From positions 1 to 49,070 of the IMG/VR virus record IMGVR_UViG_3300031722_000051: a DNA stretch of 49,070 nucleotides; one strand, 5' to 3'. How positions within the stretch are numbered: the stretch's first letter is position 1; each line of letters starts with the position of its first letter. Both the position numbers and the translations under genes were made by a program. The notes below the pieces were generated by a model, which was not told where the DNA came from, did no database searches, and saw nothing but the letters and a program-made list of their open reading frames with translations. This stretch comes from a virus. Shown here piece after piece: positions 9,255 to 44,206 of this stretch.

Positions 9255-9268
9255 GATTAGGACGAACA

Positions 9269-11335: not shown

Positions 11336-11358
11336 TAGATTACTATCATATAGACAAG

Positions 11359-11366
11359 CATAAATA
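11359..11366 (+). promoter_or_regulatory. T4-type late promoter-like octamer
   Basis: CATAAATA lies in the 58-base gap ahead of the third fibre gene, followed by ACATATAATTGCGGAG and the ATG at 11394. The expected start of transcription (about 6 bases downstream) leaves a ~22-base leader containing the GCGGAG ribosome-binding site, which is good geometry for a late promoter. It shares the ATAAATAACATA decamer-plus with the site at 6800. Confidence 0.6.
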
Positions 11367-11393
11367 ACATATAATTGCGGAGCAGAATTAAAC

Positions 11394-13337: not shown

Positions 13338-13348
13338 AAGGAAAAGCA

Positions 13349-15202: not shown

Positions 15203-15213
15203 AGGAAAAATAA

Positions 15214-16212: not shown

Positions 16213-16566
16213 ATGACTCATGAAATTTCAGTACCACCAAACCCAACATCTGTTGATTCGCTCCGCACATTAGCAGAAACTCGATTCGACCACACACTGT
16301 ATCGAAAGAACCTCCGAGAACGAATAGAAGGTCAGCTATCTGTGGCCCACAACGGCGGGCTATTCAAATCTACCCCCGAACTCATATCGTTCCTTCATTG
16401 CTGGACTGGCGACGATATTGTTATTGAAGACTCGTACCACAATCCGATCCGTATCAATCGCTCTGCCTTACTTGCTGAGCTCAAGCAAGCCTATCAATTC
16501 GCTATGAACGCCTGGCTTGTAGATTTTGACGCTAGCAAGAAAATTCGAAAGATCCCACGTGACTAA
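16213..16566 (+). CDS. Conserved T4-like phage protein of unknown function
   Basis: A 117-residue protein with no signal peptide or membrane segment. The central RIEGQLSVAHNGGLFKSTPE and the later IEDSYHNPIRI and YQFAMNAWLVDF resemble, from memory, a small conserved protein of T4-like cyanophages encoded next to tail genes. It opens the long + strand operon; its stop overlaps the likely start of the next gene by 8 bases. Codon use is C-rich at third positions. The function is not known to me; an assembly or chaperone role is possible but not shown. Confidence 0.65.
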   Translation: MTHEISVPPNPTSVDSLRTLAETRFDHTLYRKNLRERIEGQLSVAHNGGLFKSTPELISFLHCWTGDDIVIEDSYHNPIRINRSALLAELKQAYQFAMNAWLVDFDASKKIRKIPRD

Positions 16567-17338
16567 AGGCATACTAATCTTTGCGATCAACTCTACCTTC
16601 GACTATCTATCTGCTGCGGAATTCGCTGCGAAACAAGCTAAGAAGTATCTGCACCTACCCGTTACGCTAGTTACTAACGCGCCAGTCACGTCTACTGTGT
16701 TTGACACTGTTATCACTATCACCGACGATTCTTCTACTACTCGCAACGTGATCACCTCAACGGGCACGTCCACTACGCAATGGTTCAACGAAAGCCGCAT
16801 ACGCGCCTATGATCTAAGTCCATACGATCAAACACTGCTCATCGATGCTGATTTTTTCATGTTTAACAACTCACTAGCACCGATCTTTGACACCGATTCA
16901 GAAATAGCCTGCTACAACGAAATCAACGACGTTACTAGCACCTACCCTAGTCAAATCCGGCTCAATGAAATCTCTATCCCTATGCAGTGGGCTACAGTTT
17001 TGTATTTCAAAAAATGCCCACTATCAAAAGCAGTGTTTGACTTCATGCAGTTGATCAAATCAGAGTGGAAATATTACTCTATTTTGTATCACTTCAGGAA
17101 TCACAACTTTAGGAATGATTTTGCACTCAGTATAGCCCTACAGGTTTTAACTGGATATTCGACGTCAAATTTCAACAGATTACCAGGTAAACTGCACTCA
17201 ATCTTCAGTGATGTAGACGTTATTTCAGTGAATGATAACACTGAAGTCGTGTATGCTTGGAACCAGCAAGTCAATAAAATAACAGGGACGAACATTCATT
17301 GTATGAATAAAACAGCTATGGAGAAATTCTATGCGTAG
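16559..17338 (+). CDS. Glycosyltransferase-like protein (GT-A type, DxD)
   Basis: The GTG at 16559 is preferred (VTKGILIFAINSTFDYL); it sits in the normal overlap with the preceding stop. ATG 16526 is an in-frame alternative deeper inside that gene. The 259-residue product begins with a beta-strand (GILIFAINS) and has residues ~30-40 PVTLVTN. Residues ~95-102 are LLIDADFF, a DxD-type metal and nucleotide-sugar site as in GT8/GT-A transferases. The end has a His-containing IHCMNK. Donor and acceptor are unknown. Two related proteins follow, supporting a glycan-modification role. It is assigned by motif only. Confidence 0.55.
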   Translation: MTKGILIFAINSTFDYLSAAEFAAKQAKKYLHLPVTLVTNAPVTSTVFDTVITITDDSSTTRNVITSTGTSTTQWFNESRIRAYDLSPYDQTLLIDADFFMFNNSLAPIFDTDSEIACYNEINDVTSTYPSQIRLNEISIPMQWATVLYFKKCPLSKAVFDFMQLIKSEWKYYSILYHFRNHNFRNDFALSIALQVLTGYSTSNFNRLPGKLHSIFSDVDVISVNDNTEVVYAWNQQVNKITGTNIHCMNKTAMEKFYA

Positions 17339-18209
17339 ACCAGATAGTTTCAAAGAGCAGAAAGGGTTCTTCACCTTTGCACAAAATAACGATACCACAG
17401 ATTATCTGAACCTAGCCTACGGGCAAGCACTGAGCATCAAATGCTCACAGCGAGACGTCACATCATTCGCTGTGGCTGTAGATGAAGCGACGAAAGCCTG
17501 CGTCACTGATGCTCACCGTGAGGTCTTCGATTACATCATCGACATACCAGAAGACGCGGCGGCCGCCGACGCCTGGAAGATGAAGAATGAATGGAAAGCA
17601 TGGTGGTTGACCCCGTTCAAGGAGACGATGAAGTTAGAGTCCGACATCCTGTTCACCGATTCGGTTGACCATTGGTGGACCGGTATGCAGCAGACAGAAG
17701 TCTGCCTGACCACTACGATCCGCAACTACGAAGGTTCTCCATCCTCCTGCCGTGCCTACCGGAACCTGTTCGACGATAACCTCCTACCTGATGTCTACAA
17801 TGGCGTGATGTATTTCCGCTATGGCAAAGAGAGCATGAACTTTTTCGTCTACGCAAAATATGTCTTCGAGAACTGGGAGGTAGTGAAGAATAACCTTCTT
17901 CGGAACTGCCACGACGACGAACCGACCACCGACGTCGCCTATGCTATCGCTGCTGTGATGCTCGGAGAAGATCGCTGTACCAACCCGACCTTATCATACC
18001 CGACCTTTACCCACATGAAAGGGGCGATCAACGGATGGGGGACCAACACTGACTGGACGAAGACCGTCTACTCACAGATTGACGATGACCTGCATCTAAC
18101 GGTCGGATTTACTCGACAGCAATACCCGTTCCACTACCACTCTAAGAAATTCCTAACCCCGGAGATCATTCGCCGCTATGAAGATGCCTACCACCGAGCC
18201 CACCAGTGA
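17331..18209 (+). CDS. Glycosyltransferase-like protein, divergent
   Basis: A 292-residue protein overlapping the preceding gene by 8 bases. The N-terminus GFFTFAQNNDTTDYLNLAYG parallels the first strand and helix of the preceding protein (ILIFAINSTFDYLSAAEFA). MKLESDILFTDSVDHWW sits where a DxD would be expected, here reduced to ESD. TFTHMKG and the late FHYHSKKF could supply His ligands, as in GT8-like enzymes. It is unusually GC-rich compared with its neighbours. The active site is not certain, and it may be a non-catalytic partner. Confidence 0.5.
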   Translation: MRRPDSFKEQKGFFTFAQNNDTTDYLNLAYGQALSIKCSQRDVTSFAVAVDEATKACVTDAHREVFDYIIDIPEDAAAADAWKMKNEWKAWWLTPFKETMKLESDILFTDSVDHWWTGMQQTEVCLTTTIRNYEGSPSSCRAYRNLFDDNLLPDVYNGVMYFRYGKESMNFFVYAKYVFENWEVVKNNLLRNCHDDEPTTDVAYAIAAVMLGEDRCTNPTLSYPTFTHMKGAINGWGTNTDWTKTVYSQIDDDLHLTVGFTRQQYPFHYHSKKFLTPEIIRRYEDAYHRAHQ

Positions 18210-18591
18210 TCCTCTATTCGCTGCCCTGCAATCACTGACTACACCACCGGTGCCACCCGAGATTACTCATCGAATCTACTACGACGAAGCCACCCGAGAG
18301 TGCCTCCGCAAGACCGCAGCCACACAGGCAGATCACGAGCCAGACCCTACACCCGAGCCGTTCGTAATCGTTTCACGCGAGATCTACGATACCGTTCATT
18401 TCTGTCCAGCCTTCCGCGTCACCCTCAATCAAGAAATTTCGCTCATACCGGTTGACAACACCGCTACGATCCTGTTACGCTGTAGTGATACTGGCTTCGC
18501 GACGATCAAAGATAACAATATCTTCCGCGTCGACGATGCCTACCTTGGCGACACTGACCATTGGGTTATAGGGGATTACGACGATGAGTAA
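18178..18591 (+). CDS. Hypothetical protein, acidic, Pro-rich N-terminus
   Basis: A 137-residue protein overlapping the end of the preceding gene by 32 bases; ATG 18184 is an alternative. The first ~35 residues are Pro/Thr-rich (TPPVPPEITHRIYYDEATR), followed by mixed beta-strand sequence with a PFVIVSREIYD segment and an acidic tail (GDYDDE). I do not recognise the family with confidence, though the YYDEATRE pattern recalls short T4-like phage proteins. There is no signal peptide or membrane segment. Its stop overlaps the next start by 8 bases, so it belongs to the operon. Confidence 0.6.
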   Translation: MKMPTTEPTSDPLFAALQSLTTPPVPPEITHRIYYDEATRECLRKTAATQADHEPDPTPEPFVIVSREIYDTVHFCPAFRVTLNQEISLIPVDNTATILLRCSDTGFATIKDNNIFRVDDAYLGDTDHWVIGDYDDE

Positions 18592-19531
18592 GATAGTAGA
18601 CATAGCAGATTTGGATTGCGTATTTTTGACATACGACGAGCCAAAGAAAGAAGAGTTTTGGATTCAGATACAAAATATGGTGCCGTGGGCAAAACGTGTC
18701 GACGGAGTCAAAGGATCCGATAACGCGCACAAGGCAGCAGCCGCAGCATCCGAGACAGAACGCTTCGTGCTGATCGACGGAGATAATCTTCCTGACGCCG
18801 AATTCTTCAACCTGCAGCTTACTTTAGACGCCACGAATGAAGATTGTGCATTTCGTTGGAAAGCACGTAACCACATCAATGGATTGATGTACGGCAACGG
18901 TGGGCTATCTTGCTGGACGAGGAAGTTTATCAACGATATGAAAACTCATGAGAATAGCACTGGTGCCACTGATACAGCCGTTGAGTTTTGCTTTGATCCG
19001 AAGTATATTCCGATGCATAACTGCTACAGCACAACCTATCCCAACGCCACCCCATTCCAAGCTTGGCGTGCAGGCTTCCGTGAGGGCGTGAAGATGTGTC
19101 TCGACCGCGGAGCAAAACCCACCCTCCAAGAATTTAAGGATAAGGTACACGGACGGAACTTCGATCACCTGTGCATTTGGCAGAGCGTGGGTGCTGATGT
19201 TGATAATGGCGATTTTGCAATATGGGGCGCACGGTACGGCACGTATCTAACAATGCTTGACCCGCATTGGGATTACCGAGACGTCCAAGACTTTGATTGC
19301 CTTGCAGATTTGTGGGACGATACTGAGTTCGACTGGCGTACAAAATACGATGGCTGGTCTGACGCCCAATGCGGCATCTGGAACGGTCTTCAACAACGCC
19401 TTACATTGCCGATCGTTGAACTCGACACTGACCAGTCAAAGTTCTTCAAGCATCACTACGCTGCCAGCCACAAAAATCTCGACGTTACGACTACAGAAAT
19501 ATCAGTCATCCGCCGCGTAGAAGGCTGGTAA
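18584..19531 (+). CDS. Glycosyltransferase-like protein (DGDN) of the WR-FRE family
   Basis: A 315-residue protein. Residues ~60-67 RFVLIDGDN give a DxD-like strand end as in GT-A folds. Residues ~165-175 AWRAGFREGVKM and the following CIWQSVGADVDNGDFAIWGA match TWRTAFRECVKL and AVWTTVAHGENSEWCLRGA near the C-terminus of the 752-residue protein encoded at 33535. The two therefore share a domain. It starts inside the previous stop (GATGAGTAA) and ends one base before the first radical SAM gene. Donor and acceptor are unknown. Confidence 0.55.
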   Translation: MSKIVDIADLDCVFLTYDEPKKEEFWIQIQNMVPWAKRVDGVKGSDNAHKAAAAASETERFVLIDGDNLPDAEFFNLQLTLDATNEDCAFRWKARNHINGLMYGNGGLSCWTRKFINDMKTHENSTGATDTAVEFCFDPKYIPMHNCYSTTYPNATPFQAWRAGFREGVKMCLDRGAKPTLQEFKDKVHGRNFDHLCIWQSVGADVDNGDFAIWGARYGTYLTMLDPHWDYRDVQDFDCLADLWDDTEFDWRTKYDGWSDAQCGIWNGLQQRLTLPIVELDTDQSKFFKHHYAASHKNLDVTTTEISVIRRVEGW

Positions 19532-19532
19532 G

Positions 19533-20927
19533 ATGACTGCTAAGAAAAGCGACTTCATGACTGCTGCGGAGAAGATGAAAGAACTTCTCGGCCCTTCCTT
19601 GTGCCTCGCAAAATGGAAACAGGTCAGCCTGCATCTGCCGACTGGGCTCAACAATAGCTGCTACCATCCTCCACTTCACAAAATTCCTGTAAGCTCGCTG
19701 AAACGTGACCCGTCTTCCCTGCACAATACTGATTACAAAAAGCTACAGAGACAGCTCATGCTTGATGGGCAGAAGCCAGCAGAATGTTCGTATTGCTGGT
19801 CAGCAGAAAATAACAACCAGCTGTCTGACCGACACTATCGTTCTGGCGAACCGTGGGCACTGAAAGACTACGATAAGATTGTGGACTCGACAGGAGACGA
19901 GAGTTTCAACCCGTCCTACGTTGAAGTAAATTTCAACCACGGCTGCAACCTAAAATGCTCGTATTGCTCACCGCAGTTTAGCTCGTCGTGGATGCAAGAA
20001 GTAGACAAAGAAGGCGGATACCCGACCGCGTCTAATCACAACTCCCCTGAATATTTTGCTGGAGACTTACGCCCTATACCTGCATCACATCCTAACCCAT
20101 ACGTCGACGCATTTTGGGAATGGTGGCCAACGCTGTATCCTGAGTTAGATCACTTCCGCATGACCGGTGGCGAACCGTTGATGGACAAGAACACCTACAA
20201 GGTATTTGACTATGTGCTCGCAAATCCATCCCCGAAACTGCACCTCGACGTTACTTCGAATTTCTCAGTTGAACCTGTGCTGTTTGACAAATATTTAGGC
20301 TATGTGAAACGTCTATGTAACCGAGATATTTTAGAGCACTTCATGCAATATGTAAGCGTTGACAGCGTAGGCTCGCAAGCAGAGTATATTCGACACGGAT
20401 TGAATTATGACAGAATGCTGTCTAACGTGCATCGTTACCTTTCTGAAAATGAGCAATGCAATAGTTTGACGTTTATCGTAACGATGAACAACCTGTCTAT
20501 CACTAGCATCAAGCCTTTGCTCGAAACGATATTAGCATTGAGAAAACAATACAGCAAGACCTATCAACGTGTATGGTTCGATACTCCATTACTGCGCAAA
20601 CCAGACTGGCAAAGCATACAGATTTTGCCGTATGAATACAGCGACCAGCTTGAAGAAGTAGCAAACTGGATGGAAGAGAATCAATGCACTGAGCAAGACT
20701 GGCATAACGGATTTAAGGATTACGAAATTCAACGTATGCGTCGAAATGTCGACTGGATGCGTGAGACATTGCCTGATATTACATTAGCAAGTCATCGTGC
20801 TGACTTCTATAGATTCTTCAACGAGCATGATCGCCGTCGCAACACAGATTTCTTAGCAACGTTCCCGGAGATGACTTCATGGTGGAACGAGACTCAGCGT
20901 CTTGCTAACGCACAATTCAAGAGGTAA
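19533..20927 (+). CDS. Radical SAM enzyme 1 (twitch-type)
   Basis: A 464-residue protein. CNLKCSYC (residues ~137-144) is the CxxxCxxC site for the SAM-binding [4Fe-4S] cluster. GGEPLMD is the SAM-amino-group motif, and VSVDSVGSQAEYIRHG follows. The N-terminal ~95 residues hold extra Cys (LCLAKW, SCYHPP, ECSYCW), resembling a twitch-type auxiliary cluster region. Near the end RRRNTDFLATFPE is a shared signature. It is closest to enzyme 2, sharing SLHNT/IHNT and PAECxYCW. The substrate is unknown. It follows the GT-like gene after one base, with GAAGG as ribosome-binding site. Confidence 0.85.
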   Translation: MTAKKSDFMTAAEKMKELLGPSLCLAKWKQVSLHLPTGLNNSCYHPPLHKIPVSSLKRDPSSLHNTDYKKLQRQLMLDGQKPAECSYCWSAENNNQLSDRHYRSGEPWALKDYDKIVDSTGDESFNPSYVEVNFNHGCNLKCSYCSPQFSSSWMQEVDKEGGYPTASNHNSPEYFAGDLRPIPASHPNPYVDAFWEWWPTLYPELDHFRMTGGEPLMDKNTYKVFDYVLANPSPKLHLDVTSNFSVEPVLFDKYLGYVKRLCNRDILEHFMQYVSVDSVGSQAEYIRHGLNYDRMLSNVHRYLSENEQCNSLTFIVTMNNLSITSIKPLLETILALRKQYSKTYQRVWFDTPLLRKPDWQSIQILPYEYSDQLEEVANWMEENQCTEQDWHNGFKDYEIQRMRRNVDWMRETLPDITLASHRADFYRFFNEHDRRRNTDFLATFPEMTSWWNETQRLANAQFKR

Positions 20928-20928
20928 C

Positions 20929-22404
20929 ATGTCAAGTAGAAAAGCAAACGAATCGCTCGCACAATACAAGATACGGGTTATAGACCCTATCTCTGAATCC
21001 TATTGCGCTGCAAAATGGTTGAATTCGACTATCTGGCTGGGTCACGGGCAAACAACATCATGCCATCACCCAGCAGCGCATAGAATCGACGTTGAAGAAA
21101 TCAAGACTAACCCTTCTGCTATTCACAACACGCCACACAAGAAGCAAATGAGGAAGATGATGCTTGAAGGCATCCGCCCTGCTGAATGTGAATACTGTTG
21201 GAAAGCTGAAGACATGAATCGCGACGTTATCAGCGACCGAGTCTACAAGACAGAAATTCACAGCGAAGAAGAGATAGCCAAGACCGTAGCAATGCCGTGG
21301 AATGCAGATTCTGAACTGAAGACATTAGAGGTTAGCTTTGATCGAACCTGTAACTTCGCCTGCTCTTACTGTAACCCAGGATTCAGCACGACGTGGGTTA
21401 AGGACATCAAGAAGAATGGTCCGTATCAGAATCTGCTTAGTGATGCTCGTGGTCATTTCATTGATACCTCGCCGTGGGCTGAAAGTCCGTCGAATGAGAC
21501 CGACAATCCCTACATCCAAGCCTTTTGGAAATGGTGGGAATCTAGCCTGCAAGATAACCTCGAAGAGATTCGCATCACCGGCGGCGAGCCATTGATGTCG
21601 AACTCAGTGTGGAAGCTGTTTGACTGGTTTAAGAATCATCCCGAGAAAGCATCACGCCTACGTTATGCAATCAACTCTAACCTGGTGCCTAAGCCAGCGT
21701 TACTTGACAAGCTGATTGAAATGAGCCATCATGTGCCTAACTTAGAGATCTACACTAGCAACGAAAGCGTAGGTGCCCAGAGCGAATATATCCGAGACGG
21801 AATGGATTACAAGCAATGGCTAGCAAATATTGAGCGTCTAATTGTTGAAGGCAACGTAAAAGAAATTCACGTTATGATGACGATCAACAGTTTATGCTTA
21901 GACAGCATCACTAAGTTTCTAAACGACACGTTAATCATCAAACGTAAATATGGCGTAGATTACTGCAACGTGTCGTTGAACATTTTACGATTTCCGAGTT
22001 TTCAGTCGTGCGCTATTTTGCCGGAAGCATTGAAGTTGATGTATAAGTACCGTTTACAAATGTGGTTAGACTGGCATGTCACTGAGGATGAGCGTGATAT
22101 GAATGGCAGATCATTGCTAGTTGAATCTGAGATAGCACAAATACAGCGGCTGATTGATTACTTAGACGTAGTGAAGACTCCTCACAGATATACGTCAGAA
22201 ACGCCTCAGCTATACAATGACTTCCGTCAATTCTACGAGCAATATGACATTCGTCGAAACAAAAATTTCAGAGAAACCTTTCCTGGACCGTTGACAGAAT
22301 TTATTGATAGCATCCCCTTAGTCTCAGGTAATGCGCCGGTCGTAGTAAATCCGTTGACTGCTGAAGCCGGCTATGTCAGTGACGAACTCGCTGATGGAAA
22401 ATAA
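20929..22404 (+). CDS. Radical SAM enzyme 2 (twitch-type), altered SxD motif
   Basis: A 491-residue protein. ATG 20929 has a good AAGAGG site and follows the previous stop by one base; an earlier in-frame start at 20902 is unlikely. CNFACSYC (~140-147) and GGEPLMS are intact. The strand after GGEP reads TSNESVGAQSEYIRDG, where all seven siblings have an S-[VIL]-D core; here it is S-N-E. The N-terminal Cys pattern (YCAAKW, SCHHPAAH, ECEYCW) matches enzyme 1, so these two are sister genes. The altered motif may change the substrate contact. Confidence 0.85.
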   Translation: MSSRKANESLAQYKIRVIDPISESYCAAKWLNSTIWLGHGQTTSCHHPAAHRIDVEEIKTNPSAIHNTPHKKQMRKMMLEGIRPAECEYCWKAEDMNRDVISDRVYKTEIHSEEEIAKTVAMPWNADSELKTLEVSFDRTCNFACSYCNPGFSTTWVKDIKKNGPYQNLLSDARGHFIDTSPWAESPSNETDNPYIQAFWKWWESSLQDNLEEIRITGGEPLMSNSVWKLFDWFKNHPEKASRLRYAINSNLVPKPALLDKLIEMSHHVPNLEIYTSNESVGAQSEYIRDGMDYKQWLANIERLIVEGNVKEIHVMMTINSLCLDSITKFLNDTLIIKRKYGVDYCNVSLNILRFPSFQSCAILPEALKLMYKYRLQMWLDWHVTEDERDMNGRSLLVESEIAQIQRLIDYLDVVKTPHRYTSETPQLYNDFRQFYEQYDIRRNKNFRETFPGPLTEFIDSIPLVSGNAPVVVNPLTAEAGYVSDELADGK

Positions 22405-23524
22405 GGTATGGTGTCCATTACCATGGACTGGTCTGTTCATTGATGAAAATTCCATTAGCCCATGCACCTACGCCCGCCAGAGATTATCTTGCTCGTCAAT
22501 AGAAGATTACCGATCACATCCGTTCCTTGTAAAACTGAAACAGGATCTAACGGAAGGTACTGCTAATACTATCTGCGAATATTGCGATAACTTTGGCAGC
22601 ACTGGTCAAGAATTCACTCCGCGGGTTATGGCTCGCAATGCCTTCCTTAAAGAGCGTGACGTTGCTGATATTTATTCTACTGATTTTGAAGTCTGTGAAG
22701 TACGGTTCTCGAATGTGTGTAATTTCAAATGCCGCACCTGTTCCCCTATGTCGAGCTCGTTGATTGCAGCCGAGGAACGTAATGCTGGAAAGGAATTGCG
22801 TCATCCTATAGTGATCGAATATATGGGCCCGACGTTAGTCGATCAAGTGAAACAAATAGCGGGTGGTTTGAAGGTGCTGAAGTTTAGTGGCGGCGAACCG
22901 ATCATGATGCCACAGGTATGGGAATTGTTGCATTATCTTATTACAACCGGCAAAAGTCCAGACATTGATATTTGGTACGATACTAACGGAAGCAACCTCA
23001 CGTTTAAGAACACCTCGATAATTGATTTGTGGTCTAAGTTTAGATCCGTCAACGTTACTGTGAGTTTAGACGCATTAGGCAGCGTTGCAGAGTACTGGAG
23101 GAACGGAACAATATGGGACAAGGTAAATAGCAATCTGCGAGCGATGATTAATTCTGGGCTCGCGAATGTTCGAGTAAATACTGTTGCTACCTGGGTTACT
23201 GCTTTTCAAATCGCTCCACTTTATCAACACTTAGTAACTGAGTATGGTATTTACCCGCAACTAAGCCGGGTCGACTCGTACAAAAACCTGTTGTCAATCC
23301 AGGTGTTGAGTCAGATGAAAAAGGATATGATCTCGAACGAACTACGATTACTACCGGCCGATGATCCAATTCAGCAGGCAATGATTGAAAATCTAATAGA
23401 GCACATGAACGCTAAGGATCTATCGCATTTAACGGCTGACTCATTAGCAGAACAATTCAAGCTGGACGCCAGGAGAGGAGAATCATTCTTTGATATTTTC
23501 CCTGAACACAAGGATTTACAATGA
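22394..23524 (+). CDS. Radical SAM enzyme 3 (twitch-type)
   Basis: A 376-residue protein. ATG 22394 gives MENKVWCPLPWTGL, aligning with sibling starts (VFCIVPW, FCSLPF); ATG 22373 is an in-frame alternative. CNFKCRTC (~107-114), GGEPIMM and VSLDALGSVAEYWRNG are the core motifs. The N-terminal cysteines are WCPLPW, ISPC and ICEYC; SPC-T replaces the usual CC pair. It overlaps the preceding stop by 11 bases and the following start by 4. It is shorter than its siblings. Confidence 0.85.
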   Translation: MENKVWCPLPWTGLFIDENSISPCTYARQRLSCSSIEDYRSHPFLVKLKQDLTEGTANTICEYCDNFGSTGQEFTPRVMARNAFLKERDVADIYSTDFEVCEVRFSNVCNFKCRTCSPMSSSLIAAEERNAGKELRHPIVIEYMGPTLVDQVKQIAGGLKVLKFSGGEPIMMPQVWELLHYLITTGKSPDIDIWYDTNGSNLTFKNTSIIDLWSKFRSVNVTVSLDALGSVAEYWRNGTIWDKVNSNLRAMINSGLANVRVNTVATWVTAFQIAPLYQHLVTEYGIYPQLSRVDSYKNLLSIQVLSQMKKDMISNELRLLPADDPIQQAMIENLIEHMNAKDLSHLTADSLAEQFKLDARRGESFFDIFPEHKDLQ

Positions 23525-24903
23525 ACAAAATCATCCCGATATGGGAACACGGCCAATTAAGCCCAGACAGTCCAAACAAGGTGTTCTGCACTGCGCCCTG
23601 GACCCATACCTATATCTCGCCACAATCTGAGCGCCGTCTATGCTGCGCCTCTCGTGAGCAGCATAGCTTTCAAAAGCAATACATTGACGCTAGCAATGAC
23701 AAGGCGTATGGCGAGGTGACTGAGAGCAAGACGGCACTTTCGGACTACCAGCCTGATACTTTAGCAGAGCACTGGAATTCACCATATATGCGCGACCTAC
23801 GCGTCAAGCTGATGGCAGGCGAGGAAATATCCCAGTGTGACGTCTGCAACAAGGATCTCTTATCTGTCAGCTCATACCGCAAGTGGTTCACTGGGTACCT
23901 ATTCCAAGACAAGATCCAGCAATGTTTCGATTCTACTGACGAGACAGGGTTCACAACCATGGAGCCAATCAGCTTCGATTACCGCTTCAGTAACCTATGC
24001 AACTTCAAGTGCCGTATGTGCGGAGAGCAGCTGAGCTCATCCTGGGAATCAGAGAAGAAGAAGCACGACCTATGGAGCCCTAAGAATCAGCCGTTCATGA
24101 TCACTGAGGTCAAGACGGCGATGCTGAATTTTCAGCAGACGGTCGTCGAGCCAGAGTTTCGCGACGCGGTAACGAGAGGCATCGTTGAGGAATGCTATTG
24201 GGTAGGTGGAGAACCGCTCATGTACGATATTCATTGGTGGACCCTGCAGGAGATGGTGAAGAATGGCAGCGCGAAAAACTGCTACCTACGCTACAACAGC
24301 AACCTAAGCCGCACGAGATTCAATGGCGTCGATCTCTATGATTATCTCCCTCAGTTTAAGAACTGGCAGATGTGCGCAAGCATTGACGGAACTGGTAAGA
24401 TAGGTGAATATATCCGCACTGGTTTGAAGTGGGACGAATGGTTAGAAAACTTCAAGAGAGGTCTTGCCCTACCTCACGGTAATGAGAGGATGATCATCGA
24501 CCTAACGATCACCGGACCAGGTATGTTCGGGCTGAAGGAAATCTTCGATCTGAGCCGAGAGCTAGACGTAAAGATCGAGACGAAGATCATGTTCGCCTTC
24601 CACGCAGACGTGATGTTCACCGCTATGTCTTGGCCACGAGAGATTCTGAATCGGATCATTGACGAGAACCTGACCTATATGCTGCCACTCGCAACCGTCA
24701 AGCAGCGATCCTTGCTCACGACCTTAGAATCAATGCGGCACCGGTCCACCCATGCAGAAGCCTACCCAGAAGAATACCAGACCAAGGCCCGCCAAGGGAA
24801 AGAGTGGCTTGAGAAGATAGAAACCATCCGCAATGACTCTTACACCATTGCTGACATTTATGCAACCGATCCGGCACTCTCCGCCTGGTGGAGCAACCTA
24901 TGA
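23521..24903 (+). CDS. Radical SAM enzyme 4 (twitch-type)
   Basis: A 460-residue protein starting at an ATGA overlap. CNFKCRMC (~158-165), GGEPLMYD and ASIDGTGKIGEYIRTG are intact. The N-terminal Cys region is VFCTAPWTHTYISP, LCCASRE and QCDVC, set further from the radical SAM core than in the siblings by an insert. Codon use is noticeably more GC-rich than in enzyme 3, hinting at separate ancestry within the array. It ends in an ATGA overlap with enzyme 5. Confidence 0.85.
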   Translation: MNKIIPIWEHGQLSPDSPNKVFCTAPWTHTYISPQSERRLCCASREQHSFQKQYIDASNDKAYGEVTESKTALSDYQPDTLAEHWNSPYMRDLRVKLMAGEEISQCDVCNKDLLSVSSYRKWFTGYLFQDKIQQCFDSTDETGFTTMEPISFDYRFSNLCNFKCRMCGEQLSSSWESEKKKHDLWSPKNQPFMITEVKTAMLNFQQTVVEPEFRDAVTRGIVEECYWVGGEPLMYDIHWWTLQEMVKNGSAKNCYLRYNSNLSRTRFNGVDLYDYLPQFKNWQMCASIDGTGKIGEYIRTGLKWDEWLENFKRGLALPHGNERMIIDLTITGPGMFGLKEIFDLSRELDVKIETKIMFAFHADVMFTAMSWPREILNRIIDENLTYMLPLATVKQRSLLTTLESMRHRSTHAEAYPEEYQTKARQGKEWLEKIETIRNDSYTIADIYATDPALSAWWSNL

Positions 24904-26096
24904 GCACCTTTTGTAGCTTACCTTTTGTACATCTCGCAACTCATCCTCACGGTGGCGTCACCCTTTGTTGCGTGAGCGATTTTACCAACGCGAAAAACAG
25001 CTCGAGAAACTTTAATAATGGTTCTCCACAGTATCTCAACCTAAACAACAATACGGTCGAAGACGTGATGAACAGCGATTACTTCAAAGGCGTTCGCCTG
25101 CAGATGCTGAACAACGAGCAGCCCGAAGCTTGTAGACGTTGTTATCTAGAAGAAACTGCCGGCATTCGTAGCAAGAGAATAGAAGAGAACGAGCGTCTAC
25201 AGTTCACAGAAGACATCGCCCGAGCGACTACGAGCGAGGCCGGTGCCATCCCTGTAAATTTCAAGTTCGTTGAGCTACGCCTTGGCAATCTGTGCAATGT
25301 GAAATGCCGTACCTGCAATCCATCCAGCAGTACGAGCTGGTCATCAGAATATATGAAGCTTCAGAAGGAGATTACCTTTGTTACTCAGTACGATAAGAGC
25401 ATCAACAGCTCGTGGACAGAGAACGACGAATTTTGGGATGACCTGCTCGCACACTGTGACGATCTCCAGTTACTCTACATCAACGGCGGTGAACCTACGC
25501 TCGTCGAAAAGCATTGGAAATTCCTACAGAAACTGATCGACCGGGGCCTACACAGGCAGGTAACCCTCTGGTACAACATCAACATGACTAACCTGCCTGA
25601 TAAGTTGATTGCGATATGGAAACAGTTTAAAGCCGTTCAAGTATCATGCAGCATCGACGATTTAGGCAAGCGTAACGAATACATTCGTACTGGGACTAAG
25701 TGGCATGACGTTGTAAATAATTTGAACAAGTTACAGAGCCTGCCGTGGATACATGTTAGCGTATGTCAAACAGTGAGTTGGTTAAACGTGATGTATTTGA
25801 ACGAATTTCATGAGTTTATGGCTAAACGTAATCTGTCGGTGTATATGAATTTTGTGCATGATCCGAAATTTTTGTCGATTCGAATACTGCCAAAAACGTG
25901 CGTGTCGAAGGTGCTGCCATGCAGTAACACATTGCCGCAACATCAGATTGACGCTATAATTTCGAATCTTGCAGTAGAAGAAAATGCGAGTCAGTGGGAT
26001 AACGGCGTTAAATACAATGCGTGGTTAGATTCATCTAGAAATACTTCTTTAAGAACGACTTTCTCCCGCATTTTTGAGATTATTCCTAATGAGTGA
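24900..26096 (+). CDS. Radical SAM enzyme 5 (twitch-type)
   Basis: A 398-residue protein. ATG 24900 is within the TATGA overlap and yields MSTFCSLPFVHL; the frame also opens upstream at 24888. N-terminal Cys: TFC, LCC and ACRRCYLEE. The core is CNVKCRTC (~131-138), GGEPTLVE and CSIDDLGKRNEYIRTG. Base composition changes inside the gene near 25,600: the 5' part uses many C/G-ending codons, the 3' part many A/T-ending ones. The end resembles the D-x-x-R-N signature (LDSSRNTSLRTTF). The substrate is unknown. Confidence 0.85.
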   Translation: MSTFCSLPFVHLATHPHGGVTLCCVSDFTNAKNSSRNFNNGSPQYLNLNNNTVEDVMNSDYFKGVRLQMLNNEQPEACRRCYLEETAGIRSKRIEENERLQFTEDIARATTSEAGAIPVNFKFVELRLGNLCNVKCRTCNPSSSTSWSSEYMKLQKEITFVTQYDKSINSSWTENDEFWDDLLAHCDDLQLLYINGGEPTLVEKHWKFLQKLIDRGLHRQVTLWYNINMTNLPDKLIAIWKQFKAVQVSCSIDDLGKRNEYIRTGTKWHDVVNNLNKLQSLPWIHVSVCQTVSWLNVMYLNEFHEFMAKRNLSVYMNFVHDPKFLSIRILPKTCVSKVLPCSNTLPQHQIDAIISNLAVEENASQWDNGVKYNAWLDSSRNTSLRTTFSRIFEIIPNE

Positions 26097-27288
26097 TAAA
26101 GTATTTTGCATTGTGCCTTGGGTGCATTTGCATGTTTGGCCTAACGGACAAGCTTACCCGTGCTGCCTTACATCGTGGAACCACCCTGTCGGGAATATAA
26201 ATCAAACTCCGATGATTGACGTATGGAACAGTGACGGTATGAAGCAGCTTCGAAAAAACATCATAGCTGGTGTCCCGTCAGACAGTTGTTCACGTTGTTA
26301 CGAATGCGAAGAGAATGGTGGACGTAGTCATAGGCAAAATTTGAATGATGATTACAAGCATCGTTTCCACGAAGTAGAAGAAACCCACAGTGACGGTACG
26401 GTTGACGAAATGAGTTTGTCGTACTACGATATTCGATTTAGTAATTTTTGCAACTTCAAATGCAGAACCTGCGGCCCAGAACTAAGCTCGGGGTGGTACG
26501 AAGATAGTGTGGCATTAGGCCACATTCCAGACACAGCTAAGAAATTTATTCGACTCCACGAGACGCCAGATCAAGTATGGGAAGAAATTGCACCACACCT
26601 TAGTAAGGTAGAAAAAATCTACTTTGCAGGCGGAGAGCCATTGCTCATTGACGAGCACTATAAGATACTGAAGTATCTAATTGCAAATAATCAAACTGAT
26701 GTTTTCCTAGGATATAACACCAATTTCTCAACGTTGAAATACAAAGATAATAACTGTCTAGAGTTGTGGAAGCATTTCTCTAAGGTTTACATAGGTGTGA
26801 GCTTAGACGGTTACGGTGAAATAGGAGAGTATATTCGAGATGGATTAGTGTGGAGTCGACTAGAGGACAACATTCGACAATTTAAAGCAGCGTTGCCTAA
26901 TGCAGATCTCATCATTAGCTGTACTCTTAGCATATTTAACGCTCTACACATGCCAGAGTTTCATAGATACATGGTGGATCAAGGCCTTATCAAGCCGGGC
27001 GATTGGGACGTAAATATTTTACTGTATCCGGAGCATTATAGGATACAGATGTTGCCAGACCAGTATAAAGATGAATTCTTCAAAAAATACCAAGACACTA
27101 TTGATTGGTTAGAGCAGAATACAACGTTATCTAGAGCAGCTGACGGGTATAGGGCTGCAATGGCAGCAGTAAAAAATGCACCGCCAGTGCCACCGGAACG
27201 GTTAACGAAATTCCGAGCACTGACTGCTCAACTTGACCAGTTACGGAAACAAGATTTTGCAACGACATTTAAAGGATATAACATTTGA
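26089..27288 (+). CDS. Radical SAM enzyme 6 (twitch-type)
   Basis: A 399-residue protein. ATG 26089 lies in an 8-base overlap with the preceding gene. N-terminal VFCIVPWVHLHVWPNGQAYP precedes CC, then CSRCYECEENG, a clear twitch-like arrangement with one extra Cys. The core is CNFKCRTC (~119-126), GGEPLLID and VSLDGYGEIGEYIRDG. The closing segment LDQLRKQDFATTF is a weak version of the shared C-terminal signature. AAAGGA near its 3' end serves as ribosome-binding site for the TTG-starting next gene. Confidence 0.85.
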   Translation: MSDKVFCIVPWVHLHVWPNGQAYPCCLTSWNHPVGNINQTPMIDVWNSDGMKQLRKNIIAGVPSDSCSRCYECEENGGRSHRQNLNDDYKHRFHEVEETHSDGTVDEMSLSYYDIRFSNFCNFKCRTCGPELSSGWYEDSVALGHIPDTAKKFIRLHETPDQVWEEIAPHLSKVEKIYFAGGEPLLIDEHYKILKYLIANNQTDVFLGYNTNFSTLKYKDNNCLELWKHFSKVYIGVSLDGYGEIGEYIRDGLVWSRLEDNIRQFKAALPNADLIISCTLSIFNALHMPEFHRYMVDQGLIKPGDWDVNILLYPEHYRIQMLPDQYKDEFFKKYQDTIDWLEQNTTLSRAADGYRAAMAAVKNAPPVPPERLTKFRALTAQLDQLRKQDFATTFKGYNI

Positions 27289-28469
27289 GCTCAAAAACCG
27301 CAGCACAAATTCTGCAAGATAAAGGATTGCCATCTAACTTTTGCGCTCTCCCGTTTGTAGCAGTAGAATGTAAAACTGACGGCAATGCTAGCGTCTGTTG
27401 CGTTCATCAAGGATCTATCCCGGATTTTAATTTTGCTAACAACACTATCAGCGAAGCATTTGACAGTAAATGGTACAAAGACATTCAGCAGGAATTCTTA
27501 GATAATAAGCAACCTGCCGGATGCCGTAATTGCTTCAACGAAGAAAAAGCCGGTATTCATAGTAAGCGAGAACGGGAAATCATTCGCCTGGCTCAGTATA
27601 TTCCGGAAGCAATAGCTAAACCAGAAATCAAATACTTAGACTTAAAGTTTGGCAATACCTGCAATCTAAAATGCCGAACCTGTTGCAGCTTCTCTAGCAG
27701 CAAATGGGGAACCGACGAAGCTGCGCTAAACCCCTGGGGGCCAGAAGGTGTAATCATGTGGAACAATCTAGGCAAGTGGCCAAAGGATAATTCTAAATTT
27801 TGGAATGACTTGTTTCGATATTCAGAATCTGTAGATTGGTTTGAACTGTTTGGTGGAGAACCAATGGTGTTGAAAGAGCACATGACGTTTTTGACGAACA
27901 TGACCTCTACGGTAGATTGCAGTAACAAAAACTTGAGCTACAATACGAACGGTACTCAAGACATGACACAGTATTTTGAACACTGGAGAAAGTTTAAGAA
28001 GGTTCAGATATTCTTCAGCATTGACGGTGTCGGCCCAAGATTCGAATACATGAGGCACCCTGCTAAGTGGGACGAAGTTAATGCAAACATCAATAAATTA
28101 CTAGCAGCTAATCTACCGTCTGTATCGGTGAATTTCTTCTGCACAGTGAGCGCATTTAACGTCTGGTACTTAGATGAGGTTGCTTCCTGGGCAAAACAGT
28201 ATCCGAATTGCCAACTTCTGTGGAACATGGTGTCTGAGCCCAAGCATTACTCGGCTAAATGTCTACCGAGATCAGTTAAAGATGCGTTGAAGGACAGGTT
28301 ACTAAATTCGCCTAACGTAGAGCATTTTGCACCTATCTACAATTACGTAGACACTCCGGAGGAACCCGACAATTATCAAGAATTCAAACGGATTATGTCT
28401 ATTGTTGACCCAAGACGTAACGAAGATTACTACCAAATATTCCAAGAATATGCAAGGCTACTACCATGA
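27285..28469 (+). CDS. Radical SAM enzyme 7 (twitch-type), TTG start
   Basis: A 394-residue protein. The start is TTG at 27285, inside the previous stop (TTTGA), with AAAGGA 8-9 bases upstream; no nearby ATG fits the N-terminal domain. N-terminal FCALPFVAVECKTDG, VCC and GCRNCFNEEKAG form the Cys region. The core is CNLKCRTC (~125-132) followed by another Cys, with GGEPMVLK and FSIDGVGPRFEYMRHP. The C-terminus has DPRRNEDYYQIFQE. It ends in an ATGA overlap with enzyme 8. Confidence 0.85.
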   Translation: MSSKTAAQILQDKGLPSNFCALPFVAVECKTDGNASVCCVHQGSIPDFNFANNTISEAFDSKWYKDIQQEFLDNKQPAGCRNCFNEEKAGIHSKREREIIRLAQYIPEAIAKPEIKYLDLKFGNTCNLKCRTCCSFSSSKWGTDEAALNPWGPEGVIMWNNLGKWPKDNSKFWNDLFRYSESVDWFELFGGEPMVLKEHMTFLTNMTSTVDCSNKNLSYNTNGTQDMTQYFEHWRKFKKVQIFFSIDGVGPRFEYMRHPAKWDEVNANINKLLAANLPSVSVNFFCTVSAFNVWYLDEVASWAKQYPNCQLLWNMVSEPKHYSAKCLPRSVKDALKDRLLNSPNVEHFAPIYNYVDTPEEPDNYQEFKRIMSIVDPRRNEDYYQIFQEYARLLP

Positions 28470-29773
28470 GTAAATACCCAGAGAACAAAACCTTTTGTCC
28501 ATATCCGTGGATTCATGTTATGACTCAACCAACTGGAACCATGAGTTGGTGTTGTGTTGCGCGTGAGAACATCAAAGACTCTGAAGGTCGGTCAATGACC
28601 GTAGATAAAAATGGCGGATCAATGAGTGCTGCCTGGAACAGCGATCACATGAAAGAGGTTCGCCTGCAGATGATAGCCGGCGAAGAAGTAAAGGGCTGCG
28701 AGCACTGCTACTATTTAGAAAGTGTGAGCAACGAAAGCTATCGAACTGGCTATATACGTGATTGGATGAACGGTAAGTCTGCAGACGAGATCACCAAGAG
28801 GATAGAATTTTCTGCAGCCAACAACGGCACCGTAAACGAAGATCCGATCTACTTAGATTTTCGACTCGGGAACCTATGCAACCTAAAATGCCGTATGTGC
28901 CAACCACAGAATTCAAGTCAAATTTACAAAGAGCAGCAACGTGTAATCAAGATCGACCCAAAGTTTGAAGACATAGTAAAGCCACATTCTTGGGGCCATC
29001 TAGGTGAAGTTATTCCGGAGTGGTGGGATAGCGAGTCATTTTTAGAGGATACAATCAAGTGGTTGCCTGGGACAAAGAAGATGTATTTCACAGGCGGCGA
29101 GCCAACACTAATCGAGCGTAACTATTGGGTAATGAAAAAGGCTATTGAATTCGGCGTTAGTGCAGATATGGAAATCATGTTCAACACTAACTGCACAAAC
29201 CTTCGTGCTGACTGGAAAGAAATACTGAGCTACTTCAACAAAATTGTTGCTTGCATTAGTCTTGACGCAATCGGTAACGCCTTAGAGTATATTCGAACTG
29301 GGGCTAACTGGGAGCCGATTAAGAAGAACATTCAATGGTATGTTGATCAGCCAAATGTATCCTGCGTGCAGTTTAGTCCGGTCATTATGTCATTAAATAT
29401 TTTTGCGATTAAGGATCTGCTGCTCTACATCGAAGAATTGCAGCAAACAACGTCAAAGCAATTGTGGATCAGTTACATTATCTGTGACTATCCGGTAGTG
29501 TTAGATCTACGTGCAATGCCGCAGGAACTGCGAGATAAGGCTATAATTGAAATCAAATGGCTGTATGAGCAACCATTGAAGATTTTCGACACAACACAAA
29601 ATAAAGAAGGTTTAGCAACCATACTAAATATTCTCGAGAACAAGTATTTGCCAAACAGTGACCAGCTATGGCAAGAATGTTTGACGTATATGAAGGCGTT
29701 GGATCTTCACCGCAATCAAAACCTGTATGAGGCATTGCCTGAGTTAATGGAAACGAAAAATGTTGATGAGTAA
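28466..29773 (+). CDS. Radical SAM enzyme 8 (twitch-type)
   Basis: A 435-residue protein, last of the eight. N-terminal TFCPYPWIHVMTQPTG, WCC and GCEHCYYLE; core CNLKCRMC (~138-145), GGEPTLIE, ISLDAIGNALEYIRTG; C-terminal LDLHRNQNLYEALPE. All catalytic residues expected of a radical SAM enzyme are present. Its stop overlaps the start of the SGNH-like gene by 8 bases, tying that gene to the same transcript. The family looks like the N-twitch radical SAM group known from marine phages and Prochlorococcus; I recall no established substrate. Confidence 0.85.
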   Translation: MSKYPENKTFCPYPWIHVMTQPTGTMSWCCVARENIKDSEGRSMTVDKNGGSMSAAWNSDHMKEVRLQMIAGEEVKGCEHCYYLESVSNESYRTGYIRDWMNGKSADEITKRIEFSAANNGTVNEDPIYLDFRLGNLCNLKCRMCQPQNSSQIYKEQQRVIKIDPKFEDIVKPHSWGHLGEVIPEWWDSESFLEDTIKWLPGTKKMYFTGGEPTLIERNYWVMKKAIEFGVSADMEIMFNTNCTNLRADWKEILSYFNKIVACISLDAIGNALEYIRTGANWEPIKKNIQWYVDQPNVSCVQFSPVIMSLNIFAIKDLLLYIEELQQTTSKQLWISYIICDYPVVLDLRAMPQELRDKAIIEIKWLYEQPLKIFDTTQNKEGLATILNILENKYLPNSDQLWQECLTYMKALDLHRNQNLYEALPELMETKNVDE

Positions 29774-30548
29774 GCGTAACTTTTATGTGTTGGGATGCAG
29801 TCACGCATCTGGCAGTGAGCTCGAAGGCGATGGCGTTGGGCATAACACTGACTTCAACCTAAACAATAGCTTCGCAGCATTACTAGGTAAGAAGATGGGT
29901 TACAACGTAATCAATCTTGCGTTCCCGGGCGGAAGTAACGATTCGATCTTTCGAACCTGCCATCGGTTACTCGATTCGACAGAAGGGGAGGATCCTTTAT
30001 CGTGGCAACGATCAACTGTGCCACTAAAACCGTCGCCTTGGATTCCACAGCCTAAATTTGATCAGGACCAGGACATTATTTTTGTGTCGTGGACTGGGGA
30101 AGAACGGTTGGAGGTGTTCGACACAAACAATTCCGAATGGATGAATTATAGCGTCGGCGCCAGTTTAACCGCCAGCAAGTTCAATCGACATCACCGAGAC
30201 TTCTACAACTCGTATATTCGATTCTGGTGCTCAGCTGACGAAACAGGATATAACAACAAATTGAAAAACGTGTTGGCTCTTGATGCATACGCCAAATACC
30301 GTGGCGCTGTTGTCATCCATCATGATAGCTTTGCGCTGTTTAAGTTTATGATTAAGAATGATTTACTGTGGCTCAACCCAAGCAGCACGTTTGTGAACTG
30401 GGCCGAAGAGAATGATTACGATCATTCCTCTGAGTGGTATCATTATTGCTTAGACGCCCACAAAGATTACGCCAACAAGCTGTACGGCGAGTTGATAGCA
30501 GCAAAGAGACCAGAGTTCAAAGAACTGAAATTTGAGGATGCTAAATGA
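29766..30548 (+). CDS. SGNH/GDSL hydrolase-like protein
   Basis: A 260-residue protein; ATG 29766 is chosen over ATG 29760, and both lie in the overlap with enzyme 8. YVLGCSHASGSE near the N-terminus fits SGNH block I with Ser as nucleophile in G-x-S. PGGSNDSIFR matches the G-x-N-D block. The late CLDAHKDYANKLY fits the D-x-x-H catalytic pair. There is no signal peptide, so a cytoplasmic role is likely, such as an esterase or acyltransferase acting on a sugar or peptide. Neighbours suggest it edits the same product as the radical SAM enzymes and carbamoyltransferase. Confidence 0.65.
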   Translation: MSKRNFYVLGCSHASGSELEGDGVGHNTDFNLNNSFAALLGKKMGYNVINLAFPGGSNDSIFRTCHRLLDSTEGEDPLSWQRSTVPLKPSPWIPQPKFDQDQDIIFVSWTGEERLEVFDTNNSEWMNYSVGASLTASKFNRHHRDFYNSYIRFWCSADETGYNNKLKNVLALDAYAKYRGAVVIHHDSFALFKFMIKNDLLWLNPSSTFVNWAEENDYDHSSEWYHYCLDAHKDYANKLYGELIAAKRPEFKELKFEDAK

Positions 30549-30661
30549 TCACTAAGATTAGAGAATTTTTGCTAACGCCATTTCGATGGATAAAGCAGGA
30601 GATAGCTTACCGTAAGCGTATCAAGAAGCTCCGCAAAAACGACCCGTTCATCTACAGATGA
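30545..30661 (+). CDS. 38-residue cationic peptide
   Basis: ATG 30545 overlaps the preceding stop (AAATGA), and the TGA overlaps the next ATG, so it is embedded in the operon by 4-base overlaps at both ends. The product is strongly basic and amphipathic (FLLTPFRWIKQEIAYRKRIK) and ends NDPFIYR. I recall small phage proteins with a similar Lys/Arg-rich helix and DPFIY end in cyanophages, so it is probably real. Its function is unknown. It is the only peptide-sized gene among the modifying enzymes. Confidence 0.7.
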   Translation: MITKIREFLLTPFRWIKQEIAYRKRIKKLRKNDPFIYR

Positions 30662-32166
30662 TAACCTGGGGAATATCAGCCGGCTTCCATGATGCGGCTC
30701 TAAGCGTGATCGATGGAAACAAAATCCTATTCGCAGCCCACAGCGAGAGGTATAGTCACGCCAAGCACGACAAAGATATCGGGTACGGCATATTAGGTGA
30801 AGCTCTTCGGCACGGAGAGCCGTCAGCCATCTCCTACTACGAGAGACCGTGGCTCAAGAAGACACGCCAGCTCTACGCAGGTCAGTATCAAGATGCCTTT
30901 TCACTGTCTGACATCACCGTTCGTCGGTACCTAAAATCAGTCGCGCCAGCGTTTGCGCTCAATCACTCGCCATCCTATCATCACCAGTCGCATCACCTGT
31001 CACACGCTGCCGCCGCCTTTCAGACGAGCCCCTTCACGAAAGCCACTGTAGTCATCATTGACGCTATAGGCGAGTGGGACACGATCTCTATCTACGGAGC
31101 AGAGTATCGGATCAAGGAGGGCGTGAGCACCGCAACCTACAAGCCACTCTGGAAGCAACGATACCCCCACAGCATCGGCCTATTCTACACCGCTATGACG
31201 GCGAAGGTGGGCCTGAGACCGCTTGACGAAGAATACATTTTGATGGGGATGGCAGGATACGGAAAGTCAACCTACGCGAACACCTTCCTTAAAACCTACA
31301 TCCGAGATCAGCAAAAGTCAACCTTTACGATGAACCTCCACGCAGGTATTCCAGAAGACACCTTCCCTGCTGACGCCGACGAATACGACATTGCCGCCTC
31401 AGCCCAGCGCGTTGCAGAGCGACTAATCCAGCAGGTGATGCTCAAGGCTGCTGCCTTTGGGTGGTCTGATAATCTCGCCTACTCTGGTGGGGTGGCGTTA
31501 AACTGTTCTGCTAATCGTCACCTAGGCCAGTACTTCAAAAATATATGGCTCATGCCAAATCCCGGAGATGCTGGATCAAGTCTAGGTGCTGCGGCGCTAG
31601 TCACAAAAGAACAACTAGATTGGCAAGGTCCATTTTTAGGCACTCGAATCTATGGAGCCTATCCAGTGCAACAGCTCATCACTGCCTTGACTACTGACAA
31701 GATCGTTGGTGTAGCGAATGGGAGAGCAGAATTTGGGCCACGGGCCTTAGGTAATCGTTCGTTGCTGGCTGACCCACGAGGACCAGAAATAAAAGATAAG
31801 GTGAATGAGATCAAGCGCCGGCAACAATTCCGCCCGTTTGCACCAGTTATCTTAGAAGAACATGTTAGCACTTATTTTGAGATGCCAGTAGGTTTTTCAG
31901 TCAGCCCGTACATGCAGGTGACAGCGAAATGTAAATTCCCTGAGCTATTCCCTGCAATCGTTCACGTAGACGGAACATCGAGGGTGCAGACTGTGCCGAG
32001 GGATTGTCGATCAGGTATTCGCCAGCTGTTAGAGAAATGGTACACCTTAACTAACTGCCCGATGTTGCTCAATACGAGTCTCAACATACGCGGCGAACCG
32101 ATGGTCAACACAAGGGAAGACGCAAATCGGTTCGAGAAGGAATACGGCGTGAAGGTGTTTAGTTAG
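30658..32166 (+). CDS. NodU/CmcH-family carbamoyltransferase
   Basis: A 502-residue protein. It begins WGISAGFHDAALSVIDGNKI and contains a HHLSHAAAA metal-binding motif (residues ~117-121), then VVIIDAIGEWDT and YSGGVALNCSANR. The YrdC-like C-terminal part has AEFGPRALGNRSLLADPR and FRPFAPVILEEH. The family transfers a carbamoyl group from carbamoyl phosphate via carbamoyl-AMP to a hydroxyl of a sugar or antibiotic. Length is within the phage and bacterial range. It ends the + strand operon, overlapping the convergent gene by 8 bases. The first ~900 bases are more GC-rich than the rest. Confidence 0.9.
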   Translation: MITWGISAGFHDAALSVIDGNKILFAAHSERYSHAKHDKDIGYGILGEALRHGEPSAISYYERPWLKKTRQLYAGQYQDAFSLSDITVRRYLKSVAPAFALNHSPSYHHQSHHLSHAAAAFQTSPFTKATVVIIDAIGEWDTISIYGAEYRIKEGVSTATYKPLWKQRYPHSIGLFYTAMTAKVGLRPLDEEYILMGMAGYGKSTYANTFLKTYIRDQQKSTFTMNLHAGIPEDTFPADADEYDIAASAQRVAERLIQQVMLKAAAFGWSDNLAYSGGVALNCSANRHLGQYFKNIWLMPNPGDAGSSLGAAALVTKEQLDWQGPFLGTRIYGAYPVQQLITALTTDKIVGVANGRAEFGPRALGNRSLLADPRGPEIKDKVNEIKRRQQFRPFAPVILEEHVSTYFEMPVGFSVSPYMQVTAKCKFPELFPAIVHVDGTSRVQTVPRDCRSGIRQLLEKWYTLTNCPMLLNTSLNIRGEPMVNTREDANRFEKEYGVKVFS

Positions 32167-33493: not shown

Positions 33494-33507
33494 CAACATC
33501 CCCTTAC

Positions 33508-44160: not shown

Positions 44161-44197
44161 TTAAGAAACCTCGCACAAAACATTGTTCTGCGCGAGG
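44161..44197 (-). terminator. Intrinsic terminator after the first VWA metallopeptidase gene
   Basis: On the - strand a 13-base-pair stem CCTCGCGCAGAAC / GTTTTGTGCGAGG (two G-U pairs) closes a 3-base loop and is followed by TTTCTTAA. It starts 10 bases after the gene's stop. Confidence 0.8.
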
Positions 44198-44206
44198 GAT
44201 TCGGAG

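Follow-up and report, generated by a model that had tools for sequence, protein, structure and literature searches.

The IMG/VR virus record IMGVR_UViG_3300031722_000051 (49,070 bases; the window) carries eight consecutive radical S-adenosylmethionine (rSAM) genes, labelled R1 to R8 in gene order. The eight co-directional, intact open reading frames (ORFs) fill positions 19533–29773 of the plus strand, encode 383–500 amino acids (aa), and have no internal stop. All were searched against NF033640, the N-terminal-twitch (N-twitch) rSAM family N_Twi_rSAM, which has a curated cut-off of 170 bits. Each aligned over nearly the full model length and exceeded the cut-off, with scores of 250–403 bits (E 3e-74 to 2e-120). 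The NF033640 title assigns no substrate, and the model is silent on operons and function. To our knowledge, no member of the N-twitch family has an assigned substrate.

An earlier reading made from the letters alone (the sequence-only reading) had described eight undecayed twitch-type enzymes with CxxxCxxC, GGEP, and a Cys-rich N-terminus, and a different motif in enzyme 2. The family search, complete motifs and Cys ligands, and uninterrupted ORFs bore this out. The gaps of at most one base or overlaps of 4–11 bases that it gave are obtained when downstream ATG starts are used; with the longest ORFs, overlaps reach 32 bases. In all eight enzymes, an N-terminal set of four cysteines, C...C(C)...CxxC, lies ahead of the three-cysteine CxxxCxxC core, and the BtrN twitch domain aligns with this N-terminal segment. 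The domain order of R1–R8 appears, from these alignments, to be permuted relative to ordinary twitch/SPASM enzymes. Canonical SPASM/twitch membership, which places an auxiliary Cys cluster C-terminal to the core, was rejected because in each of the eight the core comes after the Cys-rich segment.

The eight enzymes belong to separate old subfamilies and are not copies of one another. Identity to R6 is 21–28% for the other seven, and CxxxCxxC and GGEP are among the 21 invariant columns of the alignment. The sequence-only reading had called the enzymes distinct and asked whether they form one lineage or separate ones. In a tree of 215 domains, R1, R2, R4, R5, R6, R7, and R8 each fall in their own clade, shared with other phages and Bdellovibrionota, and R3 stands alone. 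Clade support is 1.0 for R4, 0.96 for R5, 0.92 for R1 and R6, 0.88 for R2, 0.81 for R8, and 0.71 for R7; the branching order of R5 versus R7 is unsupported. Local tandem duplication for the sake of dosage or redundancy would account for eight neighbouring genes of one family, but it is contradicted by the low identity to R6 and by seven clades that span other phages and bacteria, and is almost certainly wrong.

R2 alone among the eight has S-x-E in place of S-x-D. This is a mark of the subfamily and not damage, because S-x-E is carried by 94 of 101 phage relatives of R2, and S-x-D is kept in 91 of 97 R1 relatives. The core triad, GGE[PS], and the N-terminal Cys are kept in nearly all of ~500 phage relatives and in 91 of 93 bacterial relatives. 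Decay or sequencing damage was ruled out by the intact ORFs, complete Cys ligands, and conserved motifs in relatives.

Cassette conservation in uncultured phages

An 8-mer pattern scan detected 222 R1 relatives in IMG/VR, and the best 80 of the 222 have 62–69% identity. Neither R1 nor the adjacent gene G3 had a match in 50,697 GenBank phages. Sixty-five distinct R1 loci were surveyed; 59 were long enough upstream and 50 were scored downstream. The gene order is tail fibres-s-G1-G2-c0-G3-R1-R2-R6-R7-R4-c2-c3 (SGNH-like)-carbamoyltransferase, often with c1-type genes inserted. Upstream of R1, fibre genes are present in 58/59 loci, and s, G1, G2, and c0 at the frequencies given in Table 1. Downstream, R4 is found in 50/50 cassettes, R2 and R6 in 49/50 each, R7 in 45/50, R5 and R8 in 6/50 each, and R3 in 0/50. 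The carbamoyltransferase is present in at least 34/50, a lower bound because many loci end before its position. Counting from R1, a locus usually has five or six rSAM domains. The core consists of five rSAMs (R1, R2, R6, R7, and R4); R3, R5, and R8 are accessory and rare in the cassette. The window departs from the usual arrangement in its order R1-R2-R3-R4-R5-R6-R7-R8, its three accessory enzymes, and the absence of c2.

The window is a variant of a conserved, largely undescribed cassette of many uncultured giant T4-like phages. The sequence-only reading had considered the clustering exceptional and only isolated phage members known. As worded, these claims are not supported. Clusters of 5–9 occur in many IMG/VR phages, with a run of nine in locus L083, and N-twitch rSAM copies range from 1 to 21 per record across fifty viral records. 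Multi-rSAM phage genomes have been published (PMC2853527, PMC5332604, PMC7029224), and since such modules are already known, the eight-gene run is a variant and not a new kind. The exceptional part is an old, ordered, tail-fibre-bound cassette with a bacterial twin, rather than the number eight. The highest copy number was seen in G003 and G020 (the records behind L013 and L040), which are ~340 kb each and have 21 N-twitch rSAM matches each. ORFs of ~850 aa at L041:9884–12424 and L025:9887–12442 fuse two N-twitch rSAMs head to tail.

Among 24 large records with N-twitch rSAMs, 17 carry a gp23-type (T4-type) major capsid gene and 15 an A-type iron–sulphur (Fe-S) carrier. Three loci have an FeS_assembly_P gene (c16, PF01883; e.g., L091:4071–4373) inserted between G3 and R1. 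Other cargo includes c11, of the nucleoside diphosphate (NDP)-sugar dehydrogenase family, inserted in the G3–R1 gap, and c25, of the epimerase family, between R1 and the carbamoyltransferase. Cassette genes of relatives overlap; median gaps between G1 and the carbamoyltransferase range from −4 to −35. The T4 late-promoter motif TATAAATA almost never lies upstream of these genes and precedes 12 of 83 f3 fibre genes. The overlaps and the motif before f3 fibre genes fit co-expression with late genes. A promoter and terminator scan gave results at chance level.

Three published systems were compared. Campylobacter phage CP220 has 11 rSAM genes, five of which share an exchangeable module with an amidinotransferase gene (PMC2853527; FN667788). 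The module is alike in clustering five rSAMs beside genes of nucleotide-sugar-transferase fold and an amidinotransferase, but its clustered rSAMs have 249–342 aa and every CP220 rSAM scores below the NF033640 cut-off (31 bits at best versus 170). Membership in a CP220-type module was ruled out on this basis; the two work alike at most. A family near the cassette, c4 (L044 and 17 other loci), looks amidinotransferase-like by eye, as in the CP220 module, and has no Pfam match. T4-like TARA_ERS488813_N000010 is described, in the available part of its report, as having 12 rSAM genes, a type-A Fe-S carrier, and paaD (PMC5332604). It likewise has many rSAM genes together with genes for Fe-S assembly, but that part of the description does not give subfamilies, operon order, or sugar partners. 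In T4-like marine pelagimyophages, rSAM cassettes lie beside tail fibres and glycosyltransferases in a host-recognition cluster (PMC7029224). By that description they resemble the window and the fibre-linked R1 loci in placing rSAMs downstream of tail fibres; they are mentioned there in a sentence on two genomes, and the text consulted does not describe an ordered core, a carbamoyltransferase, or subfamilies. A literature search of partial coverage found no paper describing the ordered cassette, and a search for phage rSAMs with a carbamoyltransferase returned nothing relevant.

Bacterial counterparts

In the phylum to which a Bdellovibrionaceae metagenome-assembled genome (MAG) belongs, 100 of 369 genomes have R1 relatives (E up to 1e-20). 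Among 289 Alphaproteobacteria genomes, one has an R1 relative, on a contig that is evidently phage. Locus L172, filed under a Rhodobacteraceae MAG, holds the phage cassette t, f3, v2, s, G1, G2, c0, G3, R1 and represents contamination or a prophage. A Bdellovibrionota chromosome (L195:2150–14146) encodes eight N-twitch rSAMs in the order R2-R4-R5-R6-R7-x-R1-R2-y-R1-like, bounded by obg and lgt, both recognised by eye. A 320-aa protein family in this segment, also found in L194 and L220, has no Pfam match. R4 orthologs with 43–50% identity occur in seven Bdellovibrionota genomes, and R4-R5 pairs recur in several bacterial genomes.

Other bacterial R1 genes lie with genes for GT2 glycosyltransferases, a PMT_2-like membrane transferase, a flavin amine-oxidase/UGM-like enzyme, DegT, and SGNH-type proteins. 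In L204, 5 bases separate the end of a G3 homolog from the bacterial R1 that follows it. A flagellin-like gene is present within 20 kb of R1 in the same locus. At L196:9725–18039, an R1 homolog lies near three flagellin genes, with fliW further off, and may have a link to flagellin modification.

Predicted function of the cassette

The cassette probably serves to build and remodel an unusual coat of sugars, either on the virus or on the aquatic bacteria that are its host. We infer this from gene context, which would put the target on the virion or host surface. The best explanation, to which we assign about an even chance, is a late-expressed, tail-fibre-linked cassette for glycan assembly and tailoring, with a tail fibre or other virion protein as the guessed carrier. 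It is favoured by a TobZ/NovN-type carbamoyltransferase, GT-A-like G1–G3, sugar-nucleotide cargo, and tail-fibre synteny. Bacterial R1 homologs in GT2/DegT/flavin-oxidoreductase/SGNH clusters, once with a G3 homolog, also argue for it, as do eight NF033640 members with kept ligands, separate subfamily clades, and nearby Fe-S assembly genes. The match of the G3 model to GT-A folds, the overlapping cassette genes, and the late-promoter motif at f3 fibre genes are further support.

The carbamoyltransferase reported in the sequence-only reading was confirmed. As in TobZ, NovN, GdmN, and NodU, Carbam_trans_N and Carbam_trans_C domains are both present (phmmer E 1e-48 to NovN), but the phage form is shorter, at 502 aa. 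The SGNH-like neighbour fared less well: GCSH, N, GxxN, and H are conserved in a motif-like alignment, but no Pfam family, GDSL families included, matched below 0.01, so that support is weak. The proposed GT-like neighbours are weakly supported by fold. The G3 model (predicted local distance difference test [pLDDT] 74) has GT-A or sugar-nucleotidyltransferase folds as best Foldseek matches, its DGD motif is invariant across the loci, and G1 and G2 are homologous (99.5% by profile comparison). A Pfam scan of G1, G2, G3, c1, and c2 gave no family match, and a PDB sequence search with G1, G3, c1, and c2 profiles gave nothing significant. The multi-step modification pathway with sugar-type partners proposed earlier is supported.

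In the proposed mechanism, GT-A-like G1, G2, and G3 would build a short glycan on a carrier, which we guess to be a phage tail fibre or other virion protein and not the host envelope. The rSAMs may then act in turn on the sugar residues of the glycan through hydrogen abstraction, with epimerisation, dehydrogenation, or deoxygenation as in HygY, BtrN, AprD4, and DesII. Carbamoylation and SGNH-type acyl chemistry would be the finishing steps. R1, R2, R6, R7, and R4 would perform basic steps, and R3, R5, and R8 would add extra decorations. The DegT aminotransferase and epimerase pair (Table 1) likely supplies sugar.

HygY is a sugar-modifying rSAM enzyme. In BtrN, AprD4, DesII, BlsE, and HygY, the auxiliary domain is C-terminal or absent, and their sequence similarity to the eight is remote; likeness among sugar-modifying rSAMs lies in the aligned BtrN twitch and in BlsE, AprD4, and DesII as fold matches of R1. 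The R1 AlphaFold2 (AF2) model has no close solved relative. Its top fold matches are SuiB, SkfB, viperin, BlsE, NifB, AprD4, and DesII, at query template modelling (TM) scores of 0.27–0.37.

Several observations weigh against the glycan-cassette explanation. The R1 model is about equally near to peptide (SuiB, SkfB), nucleotide (viperin), and sugar (BlsE, AprD4, DesII) rSAMs; because the top matches are mixed and of low TM, the fold does not pick peptide over sugar. The G3 fold match is weak (TM ~0.35, best E 1.4e-3), and G1–G3 lack the Pfam match noted above. The exact T4 late-promoter motif is absent from the window. No recognised glycosyltransferase adjoins L195, which among bacterial clusters resembles the window most closely, and many R1 genes of bacteria are solitary among housekeeping genes. 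In Pfam tallies, GT2 (PF00535) was found in 11 of 130 R1 neighbours versus at most 2 of 130 control genes; this counts in favour of the explanation, but the contrast is small. A home-made GT2 profile gave 20 matches in 577 kb versus 1 in 360 kb of control sequence, but is biased because its seeds come from R1 loci. The evidence does not separate virion from host-surface targets.

The same chemistry could instead act on host envelope polysaccharide late in infection, blocking superinfection or re-binding of progeny. Bacterial R1 relatives in surface-glycan-type clusters agree with such host-surface remodelling, and glycosyltransferases of the pelagimyophage host-recognition region have been interpreted in this way (PMC7029224). 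It is nevertheless rather unlikely, given the linkage to tail fibres in 58/59 loci, the lack of a polymerase, flippase, or lipid-carrier enzyme in the window cassette, and the little gain that slow multi-step remodelling would bring to a lytic phage.

Direct modification of protein or peptide, in which the rSAMs crosslink or epimerise tail fibres, s, or c0 in the manner of SPASM maturases and without a glycan, is improbable. Twitch/SPASM enzymes commonly act on peptides, SuiB and SkfB are among the top R1 fold matches, and s and c0 are small, conserved, and adjoin the operon. However, c0 is poorly conserved in sequence and has no obvious core peptide, none of R1–R8 reaches the cut-off of any peptide-maturase family, and the carbamoyltransferase, GT-A-like genes, and sugar-nucleotide cargo would be left unexplained. 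General host-metabolism genes for cofactor, nucleotide, or DNA modification without a surface link are very improbable: phages do carry QueE/MoaA-like rSAMs and R1–R8 have weak similarity to both, but these scores are far below cut-off, and the tail-fibre location and partner genes do not fit.

Phages carry many N-twitch rSAM subfamilies. The present analysis places this family in a fixed gene context (GT-A-like G3 beside R1, tail fibres, and a carbamoyltransferase), defines a core of five enzymes, and identifies counterparts in bacteria, so the search for a first substrate could start from a single gene pair. Should the product prove to lie on virions, these widespread uncultured viruses would have a phage surface chemistry of a new kind. 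As a bolder and more doubtful proposal, giant T4-like phages might use a conserved, Bdellovibrionota-homologous assembly line of radical enzymes to write an unprecedented, multiply modified tail-fibre glycan, with accessory rSAMs varying its structure between phages.

Other genes in the window

The flanking genes are listed with R1–R8 in Table 1. The window, a genome fragment, showed no capsid gene.

Table 1. Coordinates of the rSAM genes and their neighbours
Feature	Coordinates	Strand	Evidence and remarks
Tail-fibre/virion structural genes (7584, 9269, 11394, 13349, 15214)	7584..16122	+	PHROG tail-fibre and virion matches; directly upstream of cassette
Peptidase_G2-like region in 11394 gene		+	PF11962
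s, small conserved protein	16213..16566	+	Alignment; in 58/59 R1 loci
G1, putative GT-A-like transferase	16526..17338	+	D-A-D motif; in 59/59 R1 loci; homologous to G2
G2, putative GT-A-like transferase, G1 paralog	17331..18209	+	E-S-D motif; in 59/59 R1 loci
Small ORF at c0 position	18178..18591	+	12–27% identity to c0 members; c0 in 56/59 R1 loci
G3, putative GT-A glycosyltransferase paired with R1	18584..19531	+	59–71% identity across loci
R1, N-twitch rSAM, most conserved	19533..20927	+	NF033640 E 9e-97; AF2 pLDDT 92.6
R2, N-twitch rSAM, S-x-E signature	20902..22404	+	NF033640 E 1.6e-88
R3, N-twitch rSAM, orphan lineage	22373..23524	+	NF033640 E 2.9e-74; best relatives ~27% identity
R4, N-twitch rSAM, core	23521..24903	+	NF033640 E 5e-92
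R5, N-twitch rSAM, accessory	24888..26096	+	NF033640 E 4e-106
R6, N-twitch rSAM, core	26074..27288	+	NF033640 E 2e-120
R7, N-twitch rSAM, core	27285..28469	+	NF033640 E 2e-95
R8, N-twitch rSAM, accessory	28466..29773	+	NF033640 E 8e-96; near-absent elsewhere by pattern scan
SGNH-like protein	29760..30548	+	GCSH...N...GxxND...H; alignment
O-carbamoyltransferase, NodU/TobZ/NovN type (predicted)	30658..32166	+	PF02543 + PF16861; phrog_1601; TobZ/GdmN/NovN structures; homologs in 83 loci
GX, repeat protein	33535..35793	+	C-terminal domain homologous to G3 (BLASTP E 3e-11); 79 loci
DegT-type aminotransferase	35784–36854	-	PF01041
Nucleotide-sugar epimerase	36847–37815	-	phrog_540

A DNA/RNA non-specific endonuclease with a signal-peptide-like N-terminus is encoded at 32735–33499 (minus strand) and has no homolog in related loci. 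At 44183–45505, two long ORFs (439 and 432 aa) occupy opposite strands of the same DNA. The minus-strand ORF is a phrog_1314 HNH endonuclease with a paralog at 46137–47375.

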